A stretch of 64,000 nucleotides of DNA from Tetrapyrgos nigripes. Lineage: Eukaryota > Basidiomycota > Agaricomycetes > Agaricales > Campanellaceae. Each line of letters starts with the position of its first letter. Position 1 is the stretch's first letter. Below, piece by piece: positions 196-63,948 of the stretch. Made by a program: the position numbers and the translations under genes. Under the pieces are notes generated by a model. It saw only the letters and a list, made by a program, of their open reading frames with translations, made no database searches and had not been told where the DNA came from. The stretch is taken from positions 372,001-436,000 of the forward strand of contig JAACJM010000041.1 of the NCBI GenBank assembly GCA_013368315.1, read 5' to 3'.

Positions 196-2513
196 ATGTC
201 TACTACAAAGGATCGGCTGGCAGAACCTGGGTCTACTGTCGATACCGAAGAGCAGAGGAAAGCAATTCGCATCCTCGACTTGACTATTCTTCCTGTAATG
301 GCGGTATTTTATCTGTTATCCTTTCTGGTAAGCATATATCCGCCCTGATTCGTATACGCATGCGGCATGCTCTGGTAATAGTCTCTAATTAGAAACATTT
401 AGGACCGTACTAAGATGGGTAAATACTTAATATTCAAGTGTCGATTATGAAATTTCTAAGTTGACACTTATCGGCTTTTTTTTCCCCAGGAAATGCAAGG
501 GTTGCTGGTCTTCAGAAAGATCTTGGGATAAATGATAAACAATACGCCCTTGCAATAATAGCTCTTCAGGTGTGAGTCGATTTGCTCTTTGTTGCAACAT
601 TGATTGTAATGAAGATAGCCCCTTCATCCTTGTCGAGCTTTCTTCCAATCTTCTCCTGCGCAAGGTTGCACCACAGCTTCTTATGCCTTCTATCTTGACA
701 ATCTGGGGTATTATAGTGGTTCTTCATGGTGGGTTCTCCTTGGTCTCATTTGACTGGGCAGTCTTATTCCAATACAAATTATTATATACCATATAGGCTT
801 TGTGACATCCTATCCTGGTCTTATCATTGTTAGAGCAATTCTAGGGGTAATGGAAGGTCCAATGGTCCCAGGGATTGTACTATATCTCTCTGGATTTTAC
901 ACTAGGAGGGAGCTAGCTTTCAGGTAAGTAATTTAGTACTAATTCTATTCCAATGACAGACTTGGCTCTGACTCTCTCTCCTTATTGAGGATTGCAATAT
1001 TCCTTTCATCAGGTTCAGTAAGTGCTTTCCAAATTCGTTGTCTGCTTGCCCCGCCCTACAGCTTTCATGAGACAGAAATATTCTACTTACAGCTGAATAC
1101 TTTTGTTATTTATTATTTAGCTTGCAGGTGCATTTTCTGGTCTGTTGGCCGCAGCAATACAGAATATGGATGGGATAGGGGGAAAATCAGGTTGGAGGTG
1201 GATATATATTCTGGTAAGCAATATTTTAAGCTTCAAATTGATTCCTGTTGTGGAAATTTCATATTGTCTGTTTATACTTTCTTCAGGAGGGTATTTTCAG
1301 CACCCTTGTTGGCATTCTTGGTTTTTACCTTGTACCAAATACACCTGATGACCTCAAATATCTGTCTGCACGTCAAAAATGGTGGGTAAATTTCTCCATC
1401 TATATGTGATGAGTATTATTTCACAGCCTAATTCTTTTCTGGGTATTGGCAGGTTGATTGTGTCCAGATTACAACAAGATCAGCCCACACACTTGAATGA
1501 TCATGACCATTTCAGCCTCCAGCAAATTATTGCTTCAATTTGCTCTCCTCACGTTATCTGTGTATTTTTCATGTTTTATATGACTGGGACTCATGTCTTC
1601 GGACTTGCTCTCTTTTTGCCATTTATGGTACACCAGCTGGGGTTCTCTTCAATCAAATCACAGCTATTGAGTGTTGGGCCCTTTGTGGGAGGATTTATTG
1701 GTGTGTTTTTCCTAGTTAATTATGTCTTTAACCTTCCATGCTGAGAGCATCCATTTATAGTGACACTGTTCTCAGCATTCTGGTCTGATTGGTACAATAT
1801 TCGGGCAATTCCCATCATGATCACATATAGCTTTGCTGTGGTAGGATATCTTATGTACTTTGGTAAGTATTTTGGAACCAGTGCATTCAACAATATATTC
1901 AGTATATGTCACACACTTGACTAGCTACCGACGTGAAGTATGGCTCTCTCTACTTGATAGCTGCTGGCGTATTTGGGACCAGTCCCGTATTGTTTGCCTG
2001 GATGGGGAATAACTCAGAGCCGCATTATCGCAGGGCCACGAGTGGGAGATTGGGGTTTATTGCATTGAATGTGGTGAGTTGCGCTACTCGAGCTCTCTAT
2101 GTCATATATCATTCCTGACTGGCTTGCGTAGGGCGGAATCACAAGCACATGGATATATCCTTCAAATGAAGCTCCTAGTTTCAAAAAGGCTACAGTTATT
2201 AATTTAGTCTTGTGAGTCATCAAATTCTCCCCTTCTTCATCTTTTGAAACTTCCTAATTATACTGGTACTCATTTTTGCATTCTTTTGTCATTTAACAGT
2301 GCAGTCCTCATCATTCTATCAGCAGGATTGAATGCCCTCCTTCTACATAGGGCAAATAGCCTTAAAGAGAAGAAAAGAGAGGAACTGTTAGCACCTTATA
2401 TTGGAGCACAAATTGGGAATGGTGAAGATCAGGGCAAGACAGAAAAATATGAAATGTCAAAGGCCTGGAATGAGCTTGGTGATAGACATCCTGATTTTTT
2501 ATATACAATTTGA
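196..2513 (+). CDS. MFS transporter, allantoate/nicotinate permease (anion:cation symporter) type
   Basis: Predicted plasma-membrane major facilitator that would import a small organic anion such as allantoate, nicotinate or another vitamin; the substrate cannot be read from sequence. The ATG at 196 opens a soluble tail followed by a first helix ending FYLLSFL (exon 196-327). A 16-nt exon (403-418) and the exon from 490 then rebuild the loop DRTKMGNARVAGLQ, typical of the Dal5/Tna1 group. Later exons give a VRAILGVMEGPMVPG helix, a GWRWIYIL segment, NTPDDLKYLS before the central loop, and the second six-helix half from about 1500. Splicing 1367/1453 joins KW to LIVSRLQQ in frame. The stop is at 2511-2513 after a hydrophilic C-tail. 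About ten short GT-AG introns; no disruptive mutation seen. Family assignment is firm, substrate unknown. Confidence 0.9.
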
Positions 2514-2859
2514 GTCTTGACCAGGCTGCAGAGATGTGGGACTTAGAAGTGTTGTAGGATGGAACTATTATTTATCGGAGGACTATTGTATATCTTGCGT
2601 CAATGAGGTAACATTGAAGTTTAGTATAGTTTGTATTCATGAATTGATGGGGAAAATTTGCCAAATTCCAGGATCTTGGAGCCCTAAATACCACCCATGT
2701 TCAATCATCTACACTCCTATGGCGAAAGCGAAGGACAGAAGAAAAATCCCCTACGTGTGAAGACTGAACCTCTGAAAATGCACAAAAATCCCTAGGAGTA
2801 AGTTTCAGAATTGGATGGAGGTTTGGCCAATATTTACGAATTCGAAGGAAGGAGCTTAC

Positions 2860-3436
2860 TGTCCGAACGTACCGAGTCGAGCTCCGCTCACCACAAGCTG
2901 GCCATCCGAGTCGTTATCGACGTGAACGCTGGACATTAGATCTCTGAATGCTCGTGATCGACTTGAAGCCTTACCTGATATAGATACTACGGCCCTTTAA
3001 AGCTTTAACGTCGAACTTCATAGCGTCAGGCCAACTCACCGCAGGCCTCAACCCCCTCTAATTACCCCGTACACCCTCGCTCCGAATGTCTTCCCAAGTA
3101 CATCGAACGTACTCCTATACACCTCCGTCCCTCTAGCCAACTCTCCTTGAATCCTTGAAACTGCAAACGAGTTTTTGCGACTTCAGCAGGTTTGGACATG
3201 GTGACCTGTGATAGCGCAGTGAGATGAGACATGATTACTAGTTAGTACTCAGGAGTCAGTTGAAGGACTCCCTGATGAAGAAAAGGCCATACCACTCCAC
3301 AAGTTGCGAGGCCACCAAGGAGGAAGCCTTCAACAGTCGACAAAGGCTGAGGCTCGGGGCCGGGCGGGCATGATGATGGCTTGTAAGAAAGAATCAAACA
3401 GTCACTGACCAGGGTCACCGGTGTCTGGGTTCCCAA
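2860..3436 (-). pseudogene. Decayed mitochondrial carrier, oxaloacetate carrier (OAC1)-like N-terminal part
   Basis: Reading leftwards from 3436, one exon encodes PQPLSTVEGFLLGGLATCGV and splices (donor near 3291, acceptor near 3210) in frame to VTMSKPAEVAKTRLQFQG. This is the first transmembrane helix and carrier signature (PxEVxKTRLQ) of the mitochondrial carrier family; the STVEGF start is like oxaloacetate/sulfate carriers. The next stretch still reads QGELARGTEVYRSTFDVLGK, but only after a frame change, and then ends in stop codons. A later fragment, GARLGTFG, is near 2900. No ATG lies in frame upstream; the nearby ATG is out of frame. The other repeats of the carrier are missing. Best read as a pseudogene; carrier identity is fairly sure, the exact transported species is not. 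Confidence 0.7.
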
Positions 3437-3717
3437 GTACTAGTCTAATTCAGGTGCATCCTAAGCATTTTTGGCCGAATTGAGTGCGCCAGATTGTCAA
3501 GGGACGTTGTTTATCAGCCGAAGCTCTGAGTTCGGACTTTGCGGGTTTCCCGGATGATATCTCCGATGCAATTGCATACTGTCAAAACAACAAACACTTC
3601 CATTCTTTCAGCGACGCCGCGACACTAATTGACTAAAACCACCACCATACAAAATTTGAGTATCTTAACCACCACAAAACGTTAAAAAAAAACAACAGAA
3701 CACCAATACCATCAATT

Positions 3718-5851
3718 TTACGACCTAGCCCCAACTCCAACCGTATTCGTGTGTGGCATCCCCCTTCCCCTCCTCCCTCCATGTCCACCCCTTCCCCCAT
3801 GTCCCCTTCTCCCATACCCATATCCACCCCACCCTCCAACATACGCACCAGGCCCCATAAGCCCAACACCTCCCGGCTCCCCAAATGTCGCAACATTCTT
3901 CTCTCTTTCCTCCTCTCTCCTATTTCTCCTCTCATTACCACTCATACCACTATACCCACCTGCACCACCAGGCCCAGACCCAGCCCCACCTCCACCACGG
4001 CGTCCCCTCCCACCACGAGAAGAAGGTTCGTTCGCCGGTCCGGGGGTTAACTCGTCAAAGAAGGATCTAGTTGGGTTATACGCGACGGATTCTGTTACTT
4101 TGCCTGAACCGGTACCGTTTGCGTCTTGGTCCTTGTCTTTACTCTCGCCTTCGCCATTCTCACTAGGATTCGTCTCAACCTCGTCATCTCCTTGTGCCTT
4201 ATTATCCTTATCCTTCTTACCCCCAGCACTCTCAGTCGCACCACTCTTTTTATCAAACTTCGCATTTGAACTCTGAAAATCGAAATCGGTAGTCGGAATC
4301 GAAATTTGGGTTGTCGCTGGCTTTGGTCCTCCTCCACGTCGTCCACCCCTCCCTCCGGCTCCACCTTGTCCTTGTCCTTGGTTAGACACACGTAAATCCC
4401 CAAGGGCACGTTCCACGGTTTCAAGGGACGCAGCGGCAGAATTGACGTTGACATTGTTGGCGCCGGCACCGTTAGCTCGTCGAGGAGGCTGTTGCGGGTT
4501 GCGACCACCACCGGTATTGTTGATTGCTTGAGGTTGGCCCTGCGCCTGAGCTTGGGCTTGGGCAACGGCGGCGGCGGTACGTTGTTGCTGCTGAGCGTAG
4601 GCGAGGTTAGGGGAAGCAGCGGCATAAGGATATGACTGTACCGGCGCTGGGGCGGGGGCTGAGGAGGCCTGTAGATAGGGAAGAGAAGACCGTTACGTCA
4701 GTACGTGTGCGCTTACAGTGGTGATATGAAAGATGAAATCAAGCCAAAAACGACGAAGAGGGAAAAGGCGTTAATGCGGCAAAGCAAGAAAAAAGTGTAG
4801 TTGCAGCGAGTGTGAAAAAGGTAAAAAGAAGCAGAAGTACAAAAGAACAAATAGGATGAAAAAGCAAGACAACACATACCCCCAATACCGCTGGGTCATC
4901 ATGTACACTCCGTGAAGGCGTGGGCTCGTCCACTGCGAGGTCCTTAACCTCAGAGGCACGGAAGATGATGTACTCATACGGTTCTTGAACTGGTGGGATG
5001 AACTCTGCTGGCGGCCTAATAGAAGGGGGTTATTATGTCAGTGTCAGTTACTGCTGTGGAGAGAACCGAAACAATGGTCGACAAGAGTAGCTGGCGGTCA
5101 CGGGGACGCCGACAAGCCTGGGTGTTACGCGGAATGCGGAGGCTTTCCAGCTATACACCAGCGCAAGAGGCACCCGATGAATAGTGTCTGGCCATATTAC
5201 GGAAGACTACTGAGGATAACCGCAAGGGTGCGTCAAGAGAAGGAACCAGTGTACACATGACGGGCACGACGAGCTCAACCACCCGGTAACATGCAAAGAA
5301 CCACTTCAACGAGGCAACGTGCATCATATGGCTCCCTTCCAACGCGAAAGTTCGCAGCCCTGAACCAAACAAGCCAACGTGTAACCTGCGCGCTCAAGCC
5401 GTCGTCAAGCTCAGCACCTCGCGTTCCTTCGAGATTGAACCAGCTGTAACATCCTCTCAGACACCTCTCCCAACAAGCTTTCCATCTTTCCTTAGACCTT
5501 GCACCCGTTGGAGTAGAGTTCCAAACCACAGAGAGGCCGGAACCGCCAGCGACACATTGTCACGAAAAATGAACCAAAAACCAAGAACCACTCACCTTCG
5601 CGACTCGGTGCCCATAGAATACACTGTAAAAAACACTTTAGCAAAGTCTTCGGTATTCCCAGTCGATTGACCACGCACCTCTGGACAACTGGATTGTCGA
5701 AGCCGCTGGGTCAATGCCAGCTAAAATCCCTCTGTACCGCACATCAGAATGCGAAATAAGTGAAATAGGTTTTCTAGACGGGTTGAATAGTGAGATTCTG
5801 GTCTTTTCAGAGCAAGAAAATAGGGAAGTACCCAATAAAACTCATAGCCAT
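3718..5851 (-). CDS. SCD6: LSM14/Scd6-family mRNA-granule protein
   Basis: Cytoplasmic translational repressor and decapping activator of the Scd6/LSM14/Tral family, expected in P-bodies and stress granules. The start at 5849-5851 gives MAMSFIG (exon 5832-5851), spliced to KPISLISHSDVRYRGILAGI and then VYSMGTESRR, the N-terminal LSM14 domain. Exon 4880-5015 continues PPAEFIPPVQEPYEYIIFRA. The last exon (3718-4668) begins with a Gln/Ala-rich linker, then holds the FDF box (TTDFDFQSSNAKFDK), an FFD box (RSFFDELTP), and a C-terminal Arg-Gly-Gly-rich tail. All the family's landmarks occur in the usual order and the frame is intact over five exons. The third intron (5016-5595) is about 580 bp, far longer than the 50-210 bp introns nearby. 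A damaged copy of the 5' part lies at about 34770-35045. Confidence 0.92.
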
Positions 5852-6890
5852 GGTTAAAGAATGAAGATGGAGAAAGAAAAATGAGGATGTCGAGGCGTGA
5901 CACGATACGGCTCTCAAGCTGCGTTTGTTTATTCCAGAAGATGTTGCGAAACAAAGTCGTGGCACCACATTGCCACATTTGTCTCTGCCGCTTGCTCTAA
6001 CATCTGATGCTGGGCATCAGGAGGTATCTGACTGCTGTGGATTATTGGGCCCAATGAAAACTGACTCTGGCGAAATCTGTGGAAATCTGACAAAATCGGC
6101 GAGGATACCAAAAGTGTAGCTCGTCCAGCTATTCTGTCAGCGAGAGCTTGTGACTTGAAGAAATTTTCTTCTCGACGACAACTCGCCCGAGTTCCCTGGT
6201 CAAATGAAATTGGTGATAAGTTCACACGCTCCACCGCTTCGACGTACCACCACCATCCCTCTTCAACGTCGTCCTGCTCTGTAGGGCGAGTGTTATGCTG
6301 TCCTATACGCGTTTCTGGCTGGTCTGACACGTCTTCTCTGCCAGAAGGGACTCGCTCGTATCTGGTATCCAAGTGAGTATGGTATGGCCTTATACGCGTA
6401 TTTGACTCTTCTGACGCTTTCTCTCTAACAACAGGACTCGTACTAACTGTGTGATAGTCAGGTGTAGTTAATAGGTATGTGTAATACGCAGTTTATCTTG
6501 GTCTATTGTCTCTGACTTCTGCCTTTCCAGTCTTTATGGGCTCGTATTCCTTCTCGCGGACGTCAAACTACTCAGTATCAATATGTCGCCCCTCTTCTAT
6601 TGTTCCCAATTCTTAATCTGTCGACTTCGCTGTAAGAATGACATTGAGGTGGTGTTGGACAAGTACCTGGTCCTGTCTTTCTTGTGTTCTTGTGTTTTTC
6701 TCTAGACTCATGTAGTAATCACTGTTGTATTCTCAATTGGTACTACCTAATAGTAATACGATGTATTCTATCAGAATTGGCCAGGAACATGCGGATTGAA
6801 GCAGAAATCTAGGAACTGTTTTAGGAACAGTAGCTGGTCGGAATTCCACATATGATTCTGAGAGCTATGAAATTTCTCAATGAGGGGGAT
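5852..6890. other. Intergenic stretch, no assignable gene
   Basis: Holds the promoter side of the Scd6-like gene and about 900 further bases. A 147-codon minus-strand frame (5929-6372) and plus-strand intron-like borders (donor GTGAGT near 6372, acceptor near 6434) are visible, but no protein family or transposon motif is recognisable, so no gene is called. Confidence 0.4.
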
Positions 6891-7169
6891 GTGGGCCACC
6901 ACTGCGTGTGGCAATGACGAGGCCCCCCAAAAGGAAAGGGAGTGAGTCACTGAGTGGCAAGTGCTGAAGATAGATAGATAGATACACGCCAAGTGGCCCC
7001 TTCAGGGCCCGGCGGGGTGGCGTTGCGTAGTCACCTAATCGATGATATGAGCGCAGTCAACTGTTCGGTACTGGCCTCTATCAAGATTCCAAGCCAGGAG
7101 ACGATTTCAGCATAGCCACACAGCAAACCGTGGGTTTGTAAGAACGAGTCCCTTAAAAGGGCCTCGTAA
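6891..7169 (+). repeat. Dispersed repeat family R1, copy A
   Basis: About 279 bp. It starts with GTGGGCCACC followed by GGCAATGACGAGGCCC and ends with a module GCATAGCCACACA...TAAGAACGAGTCCC...AAAAGGGCCTCGTAA. The same two end modules occur at 31380-31627 (reverse) and 55608-56598, with fragments near 25757 and 28850. The GAGGCCC near the start and GGGCCTC at the end form a short inverted repeat, so it may be a small non-autonomous DNA element. No clear target duplication in this copy. A short gata microsatellite lies inside. Confidence 0.6.
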
Positions 7170-7254
7170 CTATGAAAGAGGTAAGTACCGTTCCCGTCGC
7201 AAAAGAAGTTTCCTTCAGAATACCGCTGCTACAGCAGCTTCCGTAGTTCAATAG

Positions 7255-7342
7255 TGACGGTCAAAGTGGGTCGCAGAAACACTCGCAGAAATCAATTCTG
7301 CGGAATTTCTGCGAGCGCTTCTGCGGCCCACTTTGACCGTCA
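7255..7342. repeat. Foldback (MITE-like) element, 38-bp arms
   Basis: Left arm 7255-7292 begins TGACGGTCAAAGTGGG; right arm 7305-7342 is its reverse complement with three mismatches. A 12-base spacer separates them, so the whole 88-bp unit can form one long hairpin. It has no coding capacity. Likely a miniature DNA transposon or foldback repeat; target duplication not evident. Confidence 0.75.
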
Positions 7343-7532
7343 AGAATATCAACACTGGATCAACATCATGATCCTGACTACAATTGTCTTGGACCCATGC
7401 CTTGCCCATGCCATGTAATGAACTTCTCCTACTCCTCCCGCCGCAATGCATCATACAAGTGCGTCGCGGAAAATCTACATACGCCAAGGAATCTACATAC
7501 TCATCTTATTTTTTAGAGCCTGTTCGACAGTG

Positions 7533-7715
7533 ACAGGACGTGGATCAGGATGTCCATGAATTTCTTCCTAGTCGCATGTAACCTTATATAGTAGTCCGGT
7601 GAATAAATTGTTTCCTGTGGTGACAATCGTCCAATGAGAGCTGTACGTGTCATCACTGCTGTCGACGATGGACTACGACGAATACGGATACAGCTACGAG
7701 GAGTTGCTGACCTTC
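7533..7715 (+). repeat. Repeated 5' module of an unidentified element, copy 1
   Basis: Shares with 28888-29063 the sequence TGTAACCTTATAT-GTAGTCCGGTGAATAAA, a GTGACAAT-GTC block about 30 bp later, and an ATG opening a frame that reads MDYDEYGYSYEELLTFL here and MDDGNYEELLAF there. Here the frame stops after 17 codons. It looks like the promoter and first codons of a repeated gene or element truncated at both sites. Its family is not recognised. Confidence 0.5.
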
Positions 7716-9063
7716 CTATAGGATCGGACGCATGGAGTACATTGGTTCCTTTGGCATGCGGCGGCATGATGGGAGTCAGACTGTCATATTACCAAGACCT
7801 CTTGTTCTTCCACTTTGCACACTCGGGGTGGGCACGCTTGAATACCTTCAATGATGTAAACACCAAAATCGGACTGTTCCTGAATGAGCATGACCGTATG
7901 CCACTCTCTGCCACTGATTCCCAAAGTCACATTAAAGATGCATCAAGGCATCCGTCTTTTGTGACGAATATATCACTGGCCACAACTATAGTCCATTTCC
8001 TAGTCTGTCAGCAAGCTGCATCTTTGGTTGATCTTTCAACCGTACAAACCCACCTTGTTTCAACCTGAAGGCAGAAGCATTAGGGGGCGCTGCTCTCAAC
8101 GCTCACTTCAAAGTCCCATGACATCGTGGATGATCAGAACCAGTTCAGACATTCAGTCCTCAGAAGTCTTTATCCAGCTTGAAAGCAATAGTGCACAAAG
8201 TCATGTTACTGAAGGCAAGGTGAGTCAAACTGCTGCTAGAGTGAGAAAGAAAGTCAACTCATTACCTGGAACCAGAGACATTGTTGCATTTACAACTTCA
8301 ACCCCAACATCAACAATGGTTACATTGACTGATGCTACTGGTCAAAAGGCCATACCAATCCAAGTGGTGATATCAACCAGTTTCTTTACCTTTGTTACAA
8401 CATTATCATCTACCCCTTCAGTTTCATTGTAAATGTGTTTCAACCCATTGCAGGTAATCTTGAAGCTCATCTCCTTGCAGTATCCCTAGTACTTAACCAA
8501 TACCACAGAGCACAAGCAAGAGCAGTGCTGAAACAATGGCTGGAATAGCAGAGTTGTTGTACTCATAGTCCTTGGAATCATACACTCCTACAGAAAGAGA
8601 GAACATAAGTGGAGACGGAATCTTGTTGTAATGAATGTCCCTATGACTGTTCCAGTCAGCTCCAGTGCAACAGAAAGATAACTTCAACCATTTAATCTGA
8701 AATATACATCAAGTTCAGTTCAGGAAGAGAATGGACATCAGAGAGGCACAGCAAATGGCTACATTTCAATGGATCCACATCCAATAAAACCCGGGCTCGA
8801 CTCCATCCACCTATCAGAATCCAAAAATCCATTTGAGTCTCCAATGAAGGAGATATCCAGCATCTAAATTTAATGCTTGGACACTCACTGTCATTGCACT
8901 GTCTACTCATTTGACGATCCAAACCACCACTACCCATACAACACGCCAAAATGCAGCTACAAGAAGAAACTGATGATAAAACGGGAGCAAGTAAGAAAAC
9001 TGCAGCAGGCTTTCAACAAATCCCAAATGGAATGGAAGGAATGTAAGTGGCTATGAGGAGAAT
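7716..9063. other. Degenerate spacer left of gypsy-1
   Basis: Only short open frames, for example 8028-8432 (+), none with a recognisable domain. The base composition is poor in CpG like the tract right of gypsy-1, so this and 16983-19084 were probably one continuous decayed tract before gypsy-1 inserted. Confidence 0.4.
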
Positions 9064-9068
9064 GATGG

Positions 9069-9567
9069 TGTCAAGGTCGTAGGTACACTCAATAACCACC
9101 CAAGTCACTCGATGCAAGAAAGCCGGTTACAAGAGAATAGATTGTTGCAAGAAGTAGAGAGATAGAGGAATGGAGAGAAAGTAAGCTGACTAGGCTCTAC
9201 ACTGCGTAGTAAAAGTACAGAGCGGAGACGAAGTGAACGAACTAAGGAATAGGTTACAAAGATCACAGGTATATAAGTAAAATATGAACAGATGGGAAAG
9301 AGTAAGTAATAATAGACGGTATCATGTGGAAATGTCAAGGGCGAGAGAATAATGAGTCAAATATGGATAGATGAAGGTACTGGATCATACGGAGTGATTG
9401 ACAGTGAGAATGTCCATGGAGATAGGAATATGAGTCATAGATCTAGAGAGATGGTAACTATAGACGATGATGAGAAATGGTTGATGTTTATGGGTTTAGA
9501 GTGGGAAATAGGTAGTAAAGGGAAAAGAATAGAAAGGAAATGAATAGGCAGGAGATGATTCATGACA
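9069..9567 (-). repeat. gypsy-1 3' LTR
   Basis: 499 bp, TG...CA bounded, near-identical to 16463-16977. It is 16 bp shorter because the other copy has a local duplication near 16821. Confidence 0.93.
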
Positions 9568-9578
9568 TTACCCCCTCT

Positions 9579-10094
9579 TTAGGACGAGCTTTCACCGGAG
9601 CTCGACAATCCAGTCTTCCAATGCTCCGCCCATTGCTTGCGGAGTCGTCTGTCTACATCCCCTTGGCTCGGCCAATATTTGTCCCAATCTATGGTGTAGT
9701 TTCCAATCTCCCATCTAGGGTCGTTCCAGTCTAAGTTCCCCCACTCCGTTGTGTTGGTAGCCGTTCCCCATCCCCCTCCATTGTCGTCCATGTTCCATTG
9801 TACAACGTTGTCTGCCCCCCATATGCTGGCGTCTCCCCATCCTAGATTTCCTCTATGTTCCGCACGTAGCGACGTCCATTGTACCACACAACGGGCTTTA
9901 TGTCCTCTGCCCAATCTGCACCGTCCTGGTTCATCCTCTCCTCCCCACGTGCAGCGTTGACACCCGTTGTGAGGTCCTGCATGTTGTTTCGCCATTCGGC
10001 ATCGACGTCCGGAACGGGTTCCATAGGTGCAGCGTCCCCTATTGGCTGGGAGCGCGTCGTTCACGTTGGTGTTGGTGGAGGAAGTGGTTGACAT
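9579..10094 (-). CDS. Accessory Cys/His-rich ORF downstream of gypsy-1 pol
   Basis: 171-codon frame between the chromodomain end of pol and the 3' LTR. The chosen ATG (10092-10094) starts MSTTSSTNTNVNDALP; the open frame extends upstream, but a TATA-like TATAAAAG lies at 10194-10201, about 100 bp before this ATG, suggesting its own promoter. Residues about 20-70 contain two similar modules, RCTYGTRSGRRCRM...H...H...C and RCTWGGEDEPGRCRL...H...C, plausible tandem zinc-binding units. The rest is Trp/Asn/Asp-rich and ends in a Ser-rich tail. No family recognised; it could be a captured host gene or an element-specific extra protein. No Env-like signal peptide or membrane helix is seen. Confidence 0.6.
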   Translation of the reverse strand: MSTTSSTNTNVNDALPANRGRCTYGTRSGRRCRMAKQHAGPHNGCQRCTWGGEDEPGRCRLGRGHKARCVVQWTSLRAEHRGNLGWGDASIWGADNVVQWNMDDNGGGWGTATNTTEWGNLDWNDPRWEIGNYTIDWDKYWPSQGDVDRRLRKQWAEHWKTGLSSSGESSS

Positions 10095-56976: not shown

Positions 56977-58080
56977 CTTGAACTGACTCTCTTACACCCA
57001 CCTCACAAACAGACCTCACAACCCACTGCAACATCTCCATTTTACTGGACTTCCAATTTCCTATCTTTCCCCTACGGTGCCCCCAAGCCCATCAACACTA
57101 CCCTGTGTGAGGAGCCTCACAGGTTGGCAGGTGTGAACAATCTCAAGGAGTTGTTGCACAAGGTCATCTTCTGTCCACACCGTTTTGAGACATAAAACCA
57201 GACTCGCCGATTCGAGTAGGGTGGTCGACCGACTCTGTAATTTAAATCCTAAATCATACACACTGGCTCTCAACTTCGAACCATTTCTCGACAACCTACG
57301 AGTTTGACCCCCACCCAAATACTGCTATAAAATCGAAAATTCAGACAGCTTCAAGGACTACTCGCAACGAGTCAAAAGCACAGTACAAAAACACGCCATT
57401 GCACTCGATAACCACTGGATCAGACTAAACAAGAGAACGTGGGCCAAAGGTGAAGTAACCATCTTTGAATACCTTCGAATAAAGATATCCCCTGAAAACA
57501 CATCCCCACGTTATGTGGCAGTCATAGACACTTGCTACTTTGTTCGACTTGGAAACACTTCTATCCCTTGTTGGTTCAGTCACGACGACTACAAGGATAG
57601 CGACATCCTAGAACACTGCCAAGAAGAATGCGAGAGGTATTACCAAACTCAAATTCCCGGAATGAACGACTACTATCGACAAGGGTTCCATTGGGAGGAC
57701 GTACCCATTGATCAGTGGGATCACCTATTCTCAGAATCTGAAGATTTCCACTAGTGTATGTCCGGAAGCGGAAACCCTAGAACCCGATCTCGATCACGCA
57801 CTGCATCCTGAATCCCCAGTCGTACCTCCTCACCTCTTACCATTGTTTGTATCTGTTGACCCCACGCATACCATTCTCAATGACAAGAAGACTATCACGT
57901 TTCAGTTAACAACCAGTGGGACAGCTGTTTAAACAACTCATGCCCATACCGACTCTCTATACACAATTGAGTCCTCACTCGAACAGAACTAGGATACGGT
58001 CTAGAACCCATACAATCATCTGGGCAGCACGTCGCACCAGAACCCACTGCAGAGGTTCAACCCCCAATAAACGAACCGAC
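56977..58080 (+). pseudogene. gypsy-3 leader ORF and start of gag region
   Basis: Follows the 5' LTR; 57060-57260 is the counterpart of the gypsy-1 leader (GTGTGAGGAGCCTCACAGGTTGGCAGG shared). A frame from about 57310 to 57754 reads HWIRLNKRTWAKGEVTIFEY, VAVIDTCYFVRLGNTSIPCW and ends WDHLFSESEDFH, related to the leader ORF of gypsy-1; an in-frame stop lies near 57305. Pro-rich gag-like sequence then runs to the transposon insertion point at 58080. Confidence 0.6.
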
Positions 58081-58206
58081 TTACCATCAGTGGGACACAC
58101 AAGGTTAAAACCTGAGAGTGCCCATCATAGATCCGACAACTTGGGTCCACTTCCGGTAAGTTCGGACAGTGGACATCCCTATCCAGTTCAATTCCTTCGT
58201 GTACAG
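58081..58206. repeat. Left 126-bp terminal inverted repeat
   Basis: Begins TTACCATCAGTGGGACACAC and carries GGTTAAAACCTG and CCCATCATAGATC, all mirrored at 63514-63639. Confidence 0.9.
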
Positions 58207-58584
58207 TGCGTAAATATGTAAGTATTTTTTCAATGCAAGTGGTCCTTCCCAGCATAGCTAGGTAGAACAACTTGCCAGCAATTCCCGAAGGCTTCAAAGC
58301 TAAATCTGAAGTTGCTGCATACACGACATAAGGTACACGCGTGGTGTTCACTGCCACCTTTCACACTCTGTTTCCAACCATATTGTTGCTTCTTACCGAG
58401 TGCATCAGCAACCAGACAGAGAGCTATGAGTTTAAGTAGATATCATAAATATAAAGTACTATTAAGTACTTGCATAGATAGTCATACATAAATGTGTACT
58501 GCTGCGACGGGAGGAGTTGAAACTACATACTGGCTTGTCATATCAAAATGTCTGCAGCTTGACGGACATCTGTCTGAAGATCTC

Positions 58585-60191
58585 CTAGCCCTGAATGGCT
58601 GACCTCATTCCAGCAGATAAGCTAGGACTTCCAATTTCTTGGTATGCCCTCCAAGCCTTTCTATCAAAATCTGCATCAACCCAATGCATGAGCTCATCTC
58701 GTGGAGGCAGCCGCTTCCACAATGCATCAACAGATTTATGATGTACTGGTATTCTGCAATCTCTCAGACCGTATTGTTCTGGACAGCGCATGAGTTGATT
58801 TGGAGTTGTTCCAGATGGGTAGGATGAATTGGGTTGTTTTCTGATACGGTGAGAATTCCAGTAATTCCAGAAATTATCCAAGCATCCCTGAACAATTTTC
58901 GAAAAAATCCAATGAAAAAGATCACTTTATCAGCAATGTCAGACTCAACTGGAGCACTTGACAATAAGTAAGTACTTACACATGGTCCTGTCTGTGTGCA
59001 TGAAAATAGCCATTGAATTTCCCTTCCTGAAGGATGTCTCGGAGATCCTTGCCCTCAAAACGTTGAAGCCAATACCACATAGATTCTGCAACAATATTCC
59101 TAGTACTTGGAACAGCATGGAAAGCAGGCCACTCTTCTTTATCCTGAAAGAGTTCAGGACTGAAGAGCTCACTGCAAAATCCAAGTTTTATTAAATCACT
59201 AATCAATAGTTAAAAGGCTCACTGTAGCACCACTTGTTGTGCGTACATCTCCCCAGTCTCAGAACCTTTATCAACTGTGATCTGGACCGGAATATCTATG
59301 TATGTTTTTACGACATTAGTATTCATTTGAATTACTGATTTACCAGCATGATATGCACTATAACCACATTCTTCTATTAGATCAAGGTGTAGATGACCGA
59401 TAACATCAGCGTGGCGTGCATCAGGCACAGCTACAAGCAAAGAAATGTGACCAATATGTTGCCGAAAGCCGTAAATAGGAATCCCGACCCCACCCATATC
59501 CAGTCCAGAGGCTGCAAGCTTTTCATGGCCATCGCTATGGATCTGCTGATAGGGACCTAATACCAGTAATGGCTTACGTGGAATTCGAAGCTTCTGTCCA
59601 GATGGAGCCCTGAGGAGGCGATATGCAGGATCCTCATTCTCCTTTTGAATACAACGGACTGTATCTCTGAAATGCATGAAATCACTATCAGTATCATACT
59701 AATAGCATGTCATCCTAGAGCATAGTACCTTGGTAAAGGCATCATGTCAAGACGGAGCAATGACTGAACTGAGACTGGGCCTAGTCGATGATACGGATCA
59801 CCTTCAAGCTTATCAACTACCAAAAATGTCTTGAGGCCATTGGAAGTTTGCTTTGCATTACGTCTAGTAGTCGGAATAGCAAACTTTGTAAGTAGGGTGC
59901 TCAAGATGCGATCGCTTCAAAAGAAAATTCGTTCTAAGTGTCTGTGAATGGGACCTGAAAACTGTGATCAACTTACCCAATATGATACTTGAATTTCTTT
60001 GCCAATGCCGCACGAATTTCCAGATGCTTGAGACCTTCATGGACAGCTAAATGCATCAATTCCTCTCGAAGTTGATCATCGGGAGGTTCTGAAATCCATG
60101 GTGAGCACACTAAATTAGTTTATTGCATAAGTTGATTATACTTACTGATACTGTTGCTGTGCTGGTTTTTTCCACTAGGATTAGGAGCCAT
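58585..60191 (-). CDS. Integrase-like DDE transposase of the TIR element
   Basis: The start at 60189-60191 gives MAPNPSGKNQHSNSIS, spliced to a helix-rich part (DDQLREELMHLAVHEGLKHL, EIRAALAKKFKYHIGDRIL) that may bind DNA. The catalytic core carries Asp in GPYQQIHSDGHEKLAASGLD, then GGVGIPIYGFRQHIGHISLL, HADVIGHLHLDLIEECG, a second Asp in VQITVDKGSETGEMYA and the Glu in STRNIVAESMWYWLQRFEG. The end has DNFWNYWNSHRIRKQPNSSY and PSGTTPNQ, as in integrase-core proteins of basidiomycetes. Introns are short GT-AG; I found no premature stop, so this gene seems intact, unlike its neighbour. Stop at 58585. Confidence 0.82.
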
Positions 60192-60561
60192 TGTAGAAGA
60201 ACACTGGAGATTTGCATGCCCTCAAGAAGAAGTACAAGGATATGTCTGGTTTGACTGTCTCCTTTTAAGGGCAATGTGTGCATAGAGCTGTACCCAACAT
60301 TGTCCCAAGATGTACCTGAATTCATCAAAAGCCACCGTTGACTCCTATCTCTGGACTTGTTAGCTTTCGCGAACTCATAGTTTGAGTGGCCACAATTGGA
60401 CTGACAAAACTTTCAGGGTGAACATATGCGCCACTGTCTTCTTACCATCGACTCCTTTACAAAATTTACAAGAACGCTGCAACTGCTTCGCTGGATTTTT
60501 TGCCTGCCAGTAAAGACAATAGTAAATCATCAGTGGCCGTATTTTTAAGTATTTCTGGAGG

Positions 60562-60568
60562 TATATAA
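60562..60568 (+). promoter_or_regulatory. TATA-like box of the alpha-kinase gene
   Basis: TATATAA, about 70 bp before the ATG at 60639. Confidence 0.5.
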
Positions 60569-60638
60569 GCTGGTGTAAAAGTCTTGCTGTTGGTCAGACA
60601 TCTTGCTCAACTTTCTTCGACTTTGCTTCCTCACATTC

Positions 60639-62929
60639 ATGTCACAATCCACTGAAAATCCTTCTTCAATTTGCGAAGGTCAAGATCCTGGTGACGGATG
60701 TTCGAGCTTGTTTCCACACAAGAAGGATCCAGGACTTTGCATCGCTACTAGTCCCAGTGCTGAACCTATATCTTCACAGAACATACCTCAATGTCAGGGG
60801 TGTGGACAAATTGGTTGCAATATGCGAGAGCCATTCTGTGGATGCTGTAAACAAATCACAGGTAAATGTGACCTCTCACTCTTGCATTTCGAGTTTAATA
60901 ACCATTCATGTCTTATAGGTTCATTGGTGGAACCTGTGACAAAAACTCAACCCAAGAGCTCTGCTGACAGTGCTGCATCTTCTATTGCTGCGAACAACAT
61001 GTCTGACAATTTCACAGCTACTATGCAGGCTGCAAAGCAACGACAAGCCCAACTCGATGCGATCAAGTTTCCACCTGCGTCATCTCCTTCCACTGAAATG
61101 GCTGCCTTTCGGAATGCTAAAGCAGGCAGTGGACGAAACATTTTGGCTTATGGTCGCCTTCCCATCCCTGAAAAGGTTCTCATCAATTTTCTGAATGATA
61201 TGTTGACATTTGATGCAGCTGATAATATCTCCGGTATTTGTTCATGAGCTCTCGAAGACTTTTGGTTCTAATTCCGCTCCAGGGAGCTTGCAGTAGTATG
61301 TATATCTTTTTTGCCTCCAATCAGACACTTTCATGCTCAGTGATGAGGTGAACATTCGTTGGCCATTCAATGTCAAGCTCAGTGGTGACACTGAGCATGG
61401 TACTGTTGGATGTGTCTATGACACCCATGTTGCCATGAATGGGTTTCCTCTCAAGAATCTGGTCTCGCTAGCTGATCAAACCAAGAAAAGTCCAAGCCCC
61501 CGACAGTGTAATGGACAATACATGCACTTCTGGCTCATTGTGGATATATCAAAGGTATGTTTCCCTCAGACTTACTTTTTTGTCATCTGCTAATTTTGAA
61601 GCACAGCTTGGCACACTTCCTCCAGCTTTGGGTGGTTCTGCACGCATCAAAAGGCAGCTTGACGATGATGGTGAAATCCAAGCACCTTCTAAACATGCCA
61701 GTAAGCTGTAATCAAGAATGTACAAATTGATTTTTACTGATTCATGCAATCAAGCACTGGTTTTTACGTATGGACAGAAGCAAATTCATACTCTGCAATC
61801 CAAAAATGGCCCCAAGTTGAACTTGTCATCAGTGGCAATGAAACTCCGTATTGTGAAGGTTGAGGAAGGGGAGGAGGGTGAAATTCAGATCAACTTTGAT
61901 GAAGGAGAGGAAGTACCTGCTGTGGCATCCAGTACACCTATCAGTACTGGCCTGGCGAAAACAGTGTTCCAGGCGAGTCTATTCATGGTTTATATTTTCT
62001 CAGTACTGATTTTTAACTCAGGGTATTATGAAAGTGTCAGATCGAATTGCGTTCAAGAGAATGACCATCCCTTACAGTATGCACAATGTTTCTTGGGCTT
62101 TAGAGTCTGAATTTCGAAACATCTACTGCAGCAAATACTTTTTGGACCTGTTTCAGAGAATCTGTCAAGAGTCAGGGGTTCATATTTCTTCTAATGCAAA
62201 CTTGAATGATGGTTTACTTACAGACTTAAAAAGATTTTTCTTTCACAGATGCATATCTTGCAGAAGAAATTGTTGAAAACAATACCCCGTCTACTCTCTC
62301 TGGTGTCACTGCTGAGCGGTATGTTGACGAGATGTATGAACCAGGGTCAGAAGATTTGGAAACCCTTCAAATACTTTGGCTTATGGAACCCTGATGGAGC
62401 ACAGAAATCACCAAATATTCTGGAACGATGACTCAATTTGACCGCAACACGCTTCCCTACATGACAATGGCCACTTTTGCTCATTTCACTCTTCACTGGA
62501 CCAAAGGGAAGATGGTATTTGTTGATATACAAGGTATTATTTACAGCTTTTTGCATATAAAAATTTGGATTCTGATCAACATTCTCTGTTGATTGACAAC
62601 AGGATCTCCCACTGCACAAGGACAGGTTCTCTTTGATATTATGACACACACTAGAGATGGGTACGTATTTGATCTACAAGACTACCTTTCTATCCATCTG
62701 ATATCATTATCTCCACAGAGGAAGCTGCCCCAGAGATCATGGCTACACAGGCCTTGATGAATTTATCAGGAATCACAAATGCAACCACATTTGCCATGGT
62801 ATTGGTCTGGAAAAGTTGACTGTTAGTAAAGGCAAGGGGTGTGCTAGCACTACTGAACATTCTTCAAGCCGAACACATTCTCGTTCTCAAAAGCAGGCCA
62901 GCCCTGAAATTGATAGTGATGATGACTGA
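60639..62929 (+). pseudogene. Alpha-type protein kinase gene carried by the TIR element
   Basis: ATG at 60639 (MSQSTENPSSICEGQDPG). An N-terminal Cys cluster (CQGCGQIGCNMREPFCGCC) precedes a Ser/Ala linker. The C-terminal half has alpha-kinase landmarks: KVSDRIAFKRMTIPY with the candidate ATP-binding Lys, a DAYLAEEIVE block, LPYMTMATFAHFTLHWTKGK, MVFVDIQGS (the conserved Asp-x-Gln), LFDIMTHTRDG, and the zinc-binding end GLDEFIRNHKCNHICHGIGL. Splicing uses short introns, one apparently GC-AG near 61972. TGA (61245-61247), TAA (61269-61271) and TGA (62392-62394, in LMEP-stop-WST) break the most natural frame; each fits a C-to-T change from Arg or Gln codons. Ser/Asp-rich tail, stop at 62927-62929. 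Confidence 0.82.
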
Positions 62930-62970
62930 AACTTATTTTCATTTTTACTTAAATGATTATAATAAAAATT

Positions 62971-63332
62971 TTATCTACTAGTATTAGCGTAGAGATAAAG
63001 AAAAATAATTGAACACCAAATCAAATGCTTACCTTCGATGCATTCAGAGCACCTCCATTCACCTCCGTTCCGGCTTCCTGTTCTGACAGTGCCACAATTC
63101 ATGCATTGGTTATACGTCTGTCAAGGATAAGTCATTTAAACATCTGTAATGAACAAAAAATGTAGCTTACCGCCATAGTCTCTACGCCATCGTGCTGATC
63201 CTTCAAAGTTTTCCAGAGGGTGCATTGGCCACAAAGCCCAGTAGTCATTTTACGGGGAAATTTCTGACCACATCCTACATTGCCAGGCACTTCAACTGAG
63301 TAGCACATACTAGGTGTTGCCATTACAGACAT
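62971..63332 (-). CDS. Small Cys-rich (zinc-ribbon-like) gene at the right end of the TIR element
   Basis: The start at 63330-63332 reads MSVMATPSMCYSVEVPGNVG, then GCGQKFPRKMTTGLCGQC and, after one short intron (about 63119-63174), NQCMNCGTVRTGSRNGGEWR followed by CSECIEG. Paired CxxC motifs suggest zinc binding. A TATATAAG lies at about 63358-63366, and the frame ends at TAA 62971-62973 unless a further intron follows the GTAAGC near 63030. It resembles the Cys-rich N-terminal region found before alpha-kinase domains, so it may be the detached head of a second kinase gene. Confidence 0.55.
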
Positions 63333-63513
63333 GGGTTCATCTAGACAACCGTTATACTTATATATCCCTCCACCTGAGGCTGTGCAGGCTAAGGAAAGGC
63401 AAGCCACTACAGTAATATAGCACAGAGTAAAAGAAAACGAGGACTGACAGCATCCAAGACCCTCACTGCCAATCCTGATCATGACTGACAGCTATTGGAT
63501 AGGGGCAGGTGCC

Positions 63514-63639
63514 CTGTACACTAAGGAATTGAACTGGATAGGGGTGTCCACTGTCCAGACTTACCTGGAGTGGACCTGAGTTGTCAGATCTATGATGGGC
63601 GCTCCCAGGTTTTAACCTTGCGTGTCCCACCGACGGTAA
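63514..63639. repeat. Right 126-bp terminal inverted repeat
   Basis: Reverse complement begins TTACCGTCGGTGGGACACGC; ends against the ccgac duplication at 63640-63644. Confidence 0.9.
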
Positions 63640-63948
63640 CCGACTCCCAAACCAGAACTTCCACTTTCCCCTATCGAACCACAAACTCCCCTTAGAAGAT
63701 CTCCATCTGATAGCACCCCCAGTGCAATCCAAGAACCCATATCTGTCCCTCCCCAACAGATCATCGATCTTCAGAACATCCTTTCTAACCTTGAAATGTC
63801 TGAACACAACAACCCCATTTCAGCCACTGCCACCGCAGGAGGAACAAACAGACCCCCTGCTGACACCCTCTCTGACGATGACCAGCTCCCAAACAAAACC
63901 ACAAAGGAAAGAGGAGCGAAACCAGAAAGGTTTACAGGAGAACGAAAC
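63640..63948 (+). pseudogene. gypsy-3 gag continuation
   Basis: Plus-strand frame reads PISVPPQQIIDLQNILSNLE, MSEHNNPISATATAGG and then KERGAKPERFTGERN, matching the gag capsid start GRKPDPFSGERS of gypsy-1. It is the far side of the gag region cut by the TIR element. It is broken off at 63948 by an LTR in the opposite sense. Confidence 0.7.

Follow-up and report, generated by a model that had tools for sequence, protein, structure and literature searches.

In complete families of IS3EU DNA transposons the termini are always TA..TA and the target-site duplications (TSDs) are usually 6 bp long, according to the available sections of PMC10045372. Within the accessible text of Kojima 2025 (PMC12730594), all TET+ IS3EU families carry a TET/JBP gene between the transposase gene and an oppositely oriented alpha-kinase gene, and those of rusts have 6-bp TSDs and TAYGG..CCRTA ends. 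Alpha-kinases (PF02816) are described as 'highly expanded' in rusts, with 79 and 39 genes in two table columns, in the available part of PMC4469406, and one alpha-kinase was among 46 proteins listed as being under diversifying selection in a candidate-effector search (PMC4469406 and PMC4150398, in part). The subject of this analysis is a 64-kb stretch of the Tetrapyrgos nigripes genome (the window, to which coordinates refer unless a contig is named), in which a 5.56-kb transposon at 58082–63638 carries an alpha-kinase gene. With a probability of about 85%, this element is a decayed copy of an IS3EU-related DNA transposon from a lineage with 7-bp TSDs, in which the kinase is a regular, selected component. 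The genome searched has 98.5 Mb in 587 contigs (C-numbers); several of its loci are doubled with near-identical flanks, so both haplotypes may be present and match counts are not counts of independent genes.

An earlier reading of the window from its letters alone (the sequence-only reading) had described long inverted repeats enclosing an integrase-type transposase, an alpha-kinase and a cysteine-rich gene, and this content was recovered, as an rve/integrase-type transposase, a PF02816 alpha-kinase and a Cys-rich open reading frame (ORF). The repeats lie at 58081–58209 and 63511–63639 (129 nt, 88% identity); the second-best pair there has 29 nt. Terminus comparison trims them to terminal inverted repeats (TIRs) of 128 bp, at 58082–58209 on the forward strand, starting TACC, and at 63511–63638 on the reverse strand, ending GGTA. 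They are flanked by the 7-bp duplication ACCGACT at 58075–58081 and 63639–63645, assigned by comparing the duplications of two families, with empty sites of the window insertion as further evidence. The sequence-only reading had instead placed a 5-bp duplication, ccgac, outside ends of TTACC..GGTAA. The family of the window element (F1), taken alone, is compatible with either TTACC..GGTAA and 5 bp or TACC..GGTA and 7 bp, because every duplicated F1 target reads A-N5-T. In a sister family (F2), copies on C190 and C477 have TAGC..GCTA ends and TSDs of GGTTGCA and CATAATC. F2 termini read TAGC or TAAC..GCTA, and the outer T and A of the window element are assigned to target sequence because the bases outside TA..TA are non-complementary in F2. 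Four more copies with F2 ends (three of 1.7–2.8 kb and one of 8.9 kb) are flanked by ATATGGA, ATAGGCC, GTTCGAG and AACAGAG. An exact 7-bp TSD was found in nine independent F1 and F2 insertions, and the 5-bp version was rejected on the 7-bp TSDs and non-complementary outer bases of F2.

The insertion lies within repeated retrotransposon sequence, as had been recognized from the letters; the left flank has at least 40 matches, the window itself included (best 40 of 57 candidates). When the two flanks were joined with a single ACCGACT, 38 of the best 40 rows (of 87 candidates) matched across the junction at 74–98% identity, the best at 98% over positions 2–201 of 201, and the remaining two were the window's own halves. 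An empty site for a second F1 insertion, on C27 and C143, was found on C51. The C51 sequence (436689–439937, L058) is either an empty allele or a paralogue of the C27/C143 locus.

The TIR matched 11 places in the genome, corresponding to six F1 sites, five of them independent (C27 and C143 represent one site). A kinase catalytic exon is present at all six, in agreement with the earlier proposal that a TIR transposon moves an alpha-kinase and against the possibility that other copies never contain one. Across 1.55 kb in the transposase region, F2 shares about 68% DNA identity with the window element. The F2 kinase and transposase are colinear with those of F1 and likewise form a divergent pair. 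A later nested insertion of the kinase was rejected on this colinearity; the kinase–transposase pair predates the F1/F2 split. In a third, IS3EU-type family (F3), six copies with both ends (C163, C58, C154, C243, C160 and C20; L049–L054) are 7.0 kb long, each with a divergent kinase and transposase. F3 has TATGG..CCATA ends, with a TSD of 6 bp in four copies (C58, C20, C160 and C163), 7 bp in C154 and 4 bp in C243. The head-to-head arrangement recurs in all three families, which differ in their ends and TSD lengths. An 11-kb copy on C142 has F3-type ends and no TSD. The six F3 copies are 99.4–99.8% identical over the 3.15 kb compared, and the family looks recently active.

Codon comparisons between F1 and F2 gave, for the kinase, proportions of non-synonymous (pN) and synonymous (pS) differences of 0.25 and 0.73, and ratios of non-synonymous to synonymous rates (dN/dS) of 0.115 with the C91 copy (538 codons) and 0.131 with the C41 copy, which are rough values as synonymous sites are near saturation (pS 0.72–0.73 for the kinase and 0.76–0.80 for the transposase). 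Over 83 codons, the Cys-rich gene had a dN/dS of 0.14 (C91) or 0.20 (C41). In the transposase (pN 0.23), dS was saturated and no ratio was obtained. On these comparisons, the kinase has been kept by selection across the family split. Within F1, the ratios were 0.96 for the kinase, 0.35 for the transposase and 0.41 for the Cys-rich gene between C91 and C41, and 0.65, 0.66 and 1.55, respectively, between C91 and C170; these rest on few changes, are mixed and partly reflect decay after insertion. Copy-specific changes were taken from an alignment of three copies (4,131 columns). The window copy alone carries 68 changes, of which 49 were C>T or G>A; 54 affected an ancestral C or G, and 36 of these fell at CpG (62 of 88 and 32 of 70 for C170; 6 of 25 and 2 of 6 for C91), counts made without a baseline CpG frequency. 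Cytosine methylation at CpG probably acts on these elements, because the excess of C>T and G>A changes lies largely at CpG.

Linkage of kinase and transposase extends to related genera. A kinase sequence search returned two Tetrapyrgos proteins among the matches listed (7,997 candidates), and a kinase domain search returned five proteins (435 candidates), three of them from outside Tetrapyrgos: Stygiomarasmius scandens, Marasmius tenuissimus and Marasmius sp. AFHP31. In the protein records of each of these three species, the kinase is on a contig of the same length as that of a transposase homologue, taken to be one contig, with consecutive locus tags in two (VKT23_012248/012249 and PM082_018519/018520).

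The T. nigripes genome contains 38 matches to PF02816, with 22 located at most 12 kb from a known terminus and 20 on the inner side of termini (14 between two mapped ends and six with one mapped end). The expectation under random placement is about 0.8 of 38, a rough figure that assumes no local clustering. An F1–F3-type transposase lies within 13 kb of 19 of the 38, with 16 pairs divergent and three convergent. Five matches have a transposase alone nearby (C151, C139, C31:100746, C197, at 12.1 kb, and C23); the C23 transposase was found through PF24764 and is outside the count of 19. Thirteen matches are untied to F1–F3, comprising 11 without a terminus or transposase nearby (C233, C240, C256, C426, C6, C20:525876, C36, C51, C261, C31:141866 and C99); the other two (C27:452013 and C143:13047) lie immediately beyond F1 ends. 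At least part of the alpha-kinase genes of T. nigripes are transposon genes. The earlier suggestion that such elements offer a mechanism for kinase expansion is supported for this genome by the 20 matches inside them. The C27/C143 copy lies within about 140 bp of the PF02816 match of another alpha-kinase gene (L047, L034). For a possible fourth family (C240/C426), the two loci match throughout the 11.2 kb compared, so no element ends can be read.

Compared with the TET+ IS3EU families of rusts and Tuber, as given in the accessible text of PMC12730594, the window element has the same TA..TA ends, TIRs longer than 30 bp and a kinase opposite to the transposase. It differs from the rust families in its 7-bp rather than 6-bp TSD, its TACC..GGTA rather than TAYGG..CCRTA ends and a Cys-rich third gene, with no TET/JBP match among ten ORFs and the gene models, and from the published gene order in that transposase and kinase are just 447 bp apart. 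F3 has ends as described for TET+ IS3EU but a TIR match of only 26 bp (BLAST), versus more than 30 bp there. With IS3EU/GingerRoot (PMC10045372) the element shares TA..TA termini and, by prediction, a DDE transposase (IS3/IS481-like in that group), but the TSD is usually 6 bp in that group versus 7 bp in F1 and F2, and the available sections of that source do not mention a kinase. TSDs are 4 or 5 bp in Ginger1 and Ginger2, and 8 bp in Kyakuja-Dileera-Zisupton (KDZ) elements (Zisupton, and a Dileera element in the accessible text of PMC12730594), versus 7 bp here. The window element is IS3EU-like rather than a plain member, because its TSD differs.

The sequence-only reading had regarded kinase cargo as outside standard descriptions. 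This is only partly right: the pairing of alpha-kinase and transposase is already in print, since Kojima 2025 states that all TET+ IS3EU families carry an alpha-kinase (PMC12730594, available text). In the open-licence literature searched, no published description was found of this lineage, its Cys-rich gene or the transposon share of alpha-kinases, and the accessible text of PMC12730594 was the only source found there that links alpha-kinase and transposase. The rust expansions likewise involve many PF02816 genes in basidiomycete genomes, but in the parts available (PMC4469406, PMC5295586 and PMC4150398) they are treated as gene families with no link to transposons. The chances are about even that a basidiomycete transposon superfamily has alpha-kinases as a standard, selected component and thereby its own phosphorylation step, that the rust and mushroom expansions are mainly transposon genes, and that the window element represents a separate lineage of this superfamily, marked by 7-bp TSDs. 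If many rust alpha-kinases are transposon genes, published expansion counts and selection tests need to be re-read.

Several observations weigh against a 7-bp IS3EU-related lineage with a regular, selected kinase. The window copy is broken, with in-frame stops in both kinase and transposase; C91 lacks the transposase N-terminus and the first kinase exon, C170 has several stops, and no fully working F1 copy is among those found. Both ends could be read in five F1 copies; of these, C170 has no duplication, while C27 and C143 count as a single site. Among copies with F3 ends, C142 lacks a TSD and C243 has just 4 bp. Foldseek comparison of a transposase homologue with solved structures was weak overall (of 287 matches, four reached E <= 0.001, with template modelling scores of 0.22–0.25 on the query), 18 of the 38 kinase matches lie outside any mapped element, and the near-saturation of synonymous sites also counts here. 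Other contrary evidence would suit a kinase of no use to the transposon, a host gene captured on one or more occasions and carried along passively: eight copies with F2 or F3 ends have no PF02816 match (C122, C119, C49, C35, C51:301408, C109, C150:190866 and C53:432700), internally deleted F1 copies without a transposase match survive on C27, C143 and C53, and the pairs on C151, C139 and C31 are convergent. Passive carriage is nevertheless improbable, given the identical head-to-head order in three families with differing ends and TSD lengths, the linkage in other genera, the same pair in rusts (PMC12730594, accessible text) and the low kinase dN/dS between families. By coordinates, seven of the eight kinase-free copies are 0.2–3.1 kb long, as expected for non-autonomous copies judged by size, with C35 at 8.9 kb. 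A recent kinase capture by an rve transposon, Ginger-like or of another type, with a TSD of 5 bp would fit the integrase-like fold of a transposase homologue and F1 taken alone; it is contradicted by the 7-bp TSDs and TA..TA ends of F2, as well as by the age of the pair, and with IS3EU-like TSDs and ends this explanation is very improbable.

For a 7-bp IS3EU-related element with a selected kinase, the transposase would cut at TACC..GGTA and insert with a 7-bp stagger by cut-and-paste, and amplification of the element would multiply genomic alpha-kinase genes. The kinase would be a working accessory protein of the transposon, and a role in transposition is slightly favoured: its most likely substrates would be the transposase or a host protein, either one of chromatin or repair or one that restrains transposition, with phosphorylation licensing or timing the reaction. 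The Cys-rich protein may be a helper that binds nucleic acid or a partner. Alternatively, the kinase may act in defence against host silencing or in host signalling rather than in the transposition reaction. In TET+ IS3EU families the transposase and kinase genes flank a TET/JBP gene, for which escape from methylation-based silencing is the proposed role (available text of PMC12730594), and the CpG-biased changes of the window copy, which make CpG methylation probable, point the same way. However, no TET/JBP match was found in the window element among ten ORFs and the gene models; a defence or signalling role is possible but rather unlikely. If many alpha-kinase genes are transposon genes, the kinase also becomes a regulator of DNA transposition that can be put to the test, a kind with few known precedents.

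Exon borders of the window genes are tentative, being placed by splice signals and homologues. The alpha-kinase gene (60639–62929, forward strand) has a Cys-rich N-terminal module and a PF02816 domain, as judged by profile match, gene model and siblings. Its exons are 60639–60861, 60919–61233, 61325–61554, 61607–61700, 61755–61972, 62022–62211, 62249–62533, 62603–62660 and 62719–62929, with a GC-AG intron directly after 61755–61972; the border of exons 2 and 3 is uncertain, as about 23 residues of P0001, the kinase of the C91 sibling, are absent from the model there. PF02816 matched 62395–62592 at 36.8 bits (cut-off 21.3), and P0001 at 87.4 bits. The VDxQ, LFDxMxH and HxxNxxC motifs are kept in all five aligned relatives, and the product is a predicted, divergent alpha-kinase. 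MHCK-A and eEF2 kinase (PDB 3lkm and 7shq) have a homologous catalytic region but are host signalling enzymes with other N-terminal parts. The transposase gene (58585–60191, reverse strand) encodes 418 residues in seven exons (60191–60146, 60088–59977, 59914–59729, 59666–59359, 59295–59223, 59171–58980 and 58924–58585, stop included), including an in-frame 63-nt intron at 59358–59296 that was placed by homologue comparison. In a model with this intron unspliced, PF24764 matched below cut-off (17.7 versus 26 bits). A structure model and fold comparison gave an integrase/IstA fold for the homologue P0003, from which the transposase is predicted to be a DDE enzyme of this fold; a PDB sequence search with the transposase profile gave no match at E <= 0.1, and a tblastn search connected relatives with the transposase of F3 (best E 8.8e-7). 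The description 'intact-looking' in the sequence-only reading does not hold: a TGA at 62392–62394 (forward strand) interrupts the kinase catalytic exon and a TAG at 58585–58587 (reverse strand) ends the transposase short of its siblings, and C91 and C170 read through both positions. We infer that the 447-bp stretch between the divergent genes (60192–60638) may be a shared promoter region. The Cys-rich gene (62971–63482, reverse strand; tentative exons 63482–63171 and 63117–62971) looks zinc-ribbon-like by eye and has no Pfam match. Single comparisons with the Cys module of the kinase N-terminus (E 0.002–0.006) are suggestive of kinship.

The short kinase-free copies include C122:33197–34940, C119:23047–25863, C49:105940–107687, C51:301408–304074, C109:170096–173160 and C53:432700–432875 (about 176 bp). 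In the C91 copy, 8.15 kb (element positions ~1820–9975, L011/L012) is self-reverse-complementary at about 99% and replaces part of the sibling element, as a giant palindrome or an assembly fold-back. The AlphaFold kinase model was too poor to be used, with a mean predicted local distance difference test score (pLDDT) of 43. In P0002, another T. nigripes kinase, from C434, residues ~121–210 and 241–270, in the part that separates the Cys module from the kinase domain, are modelled with moderate confidence as mixed strands and helices (block pLDDT values of 55–87).
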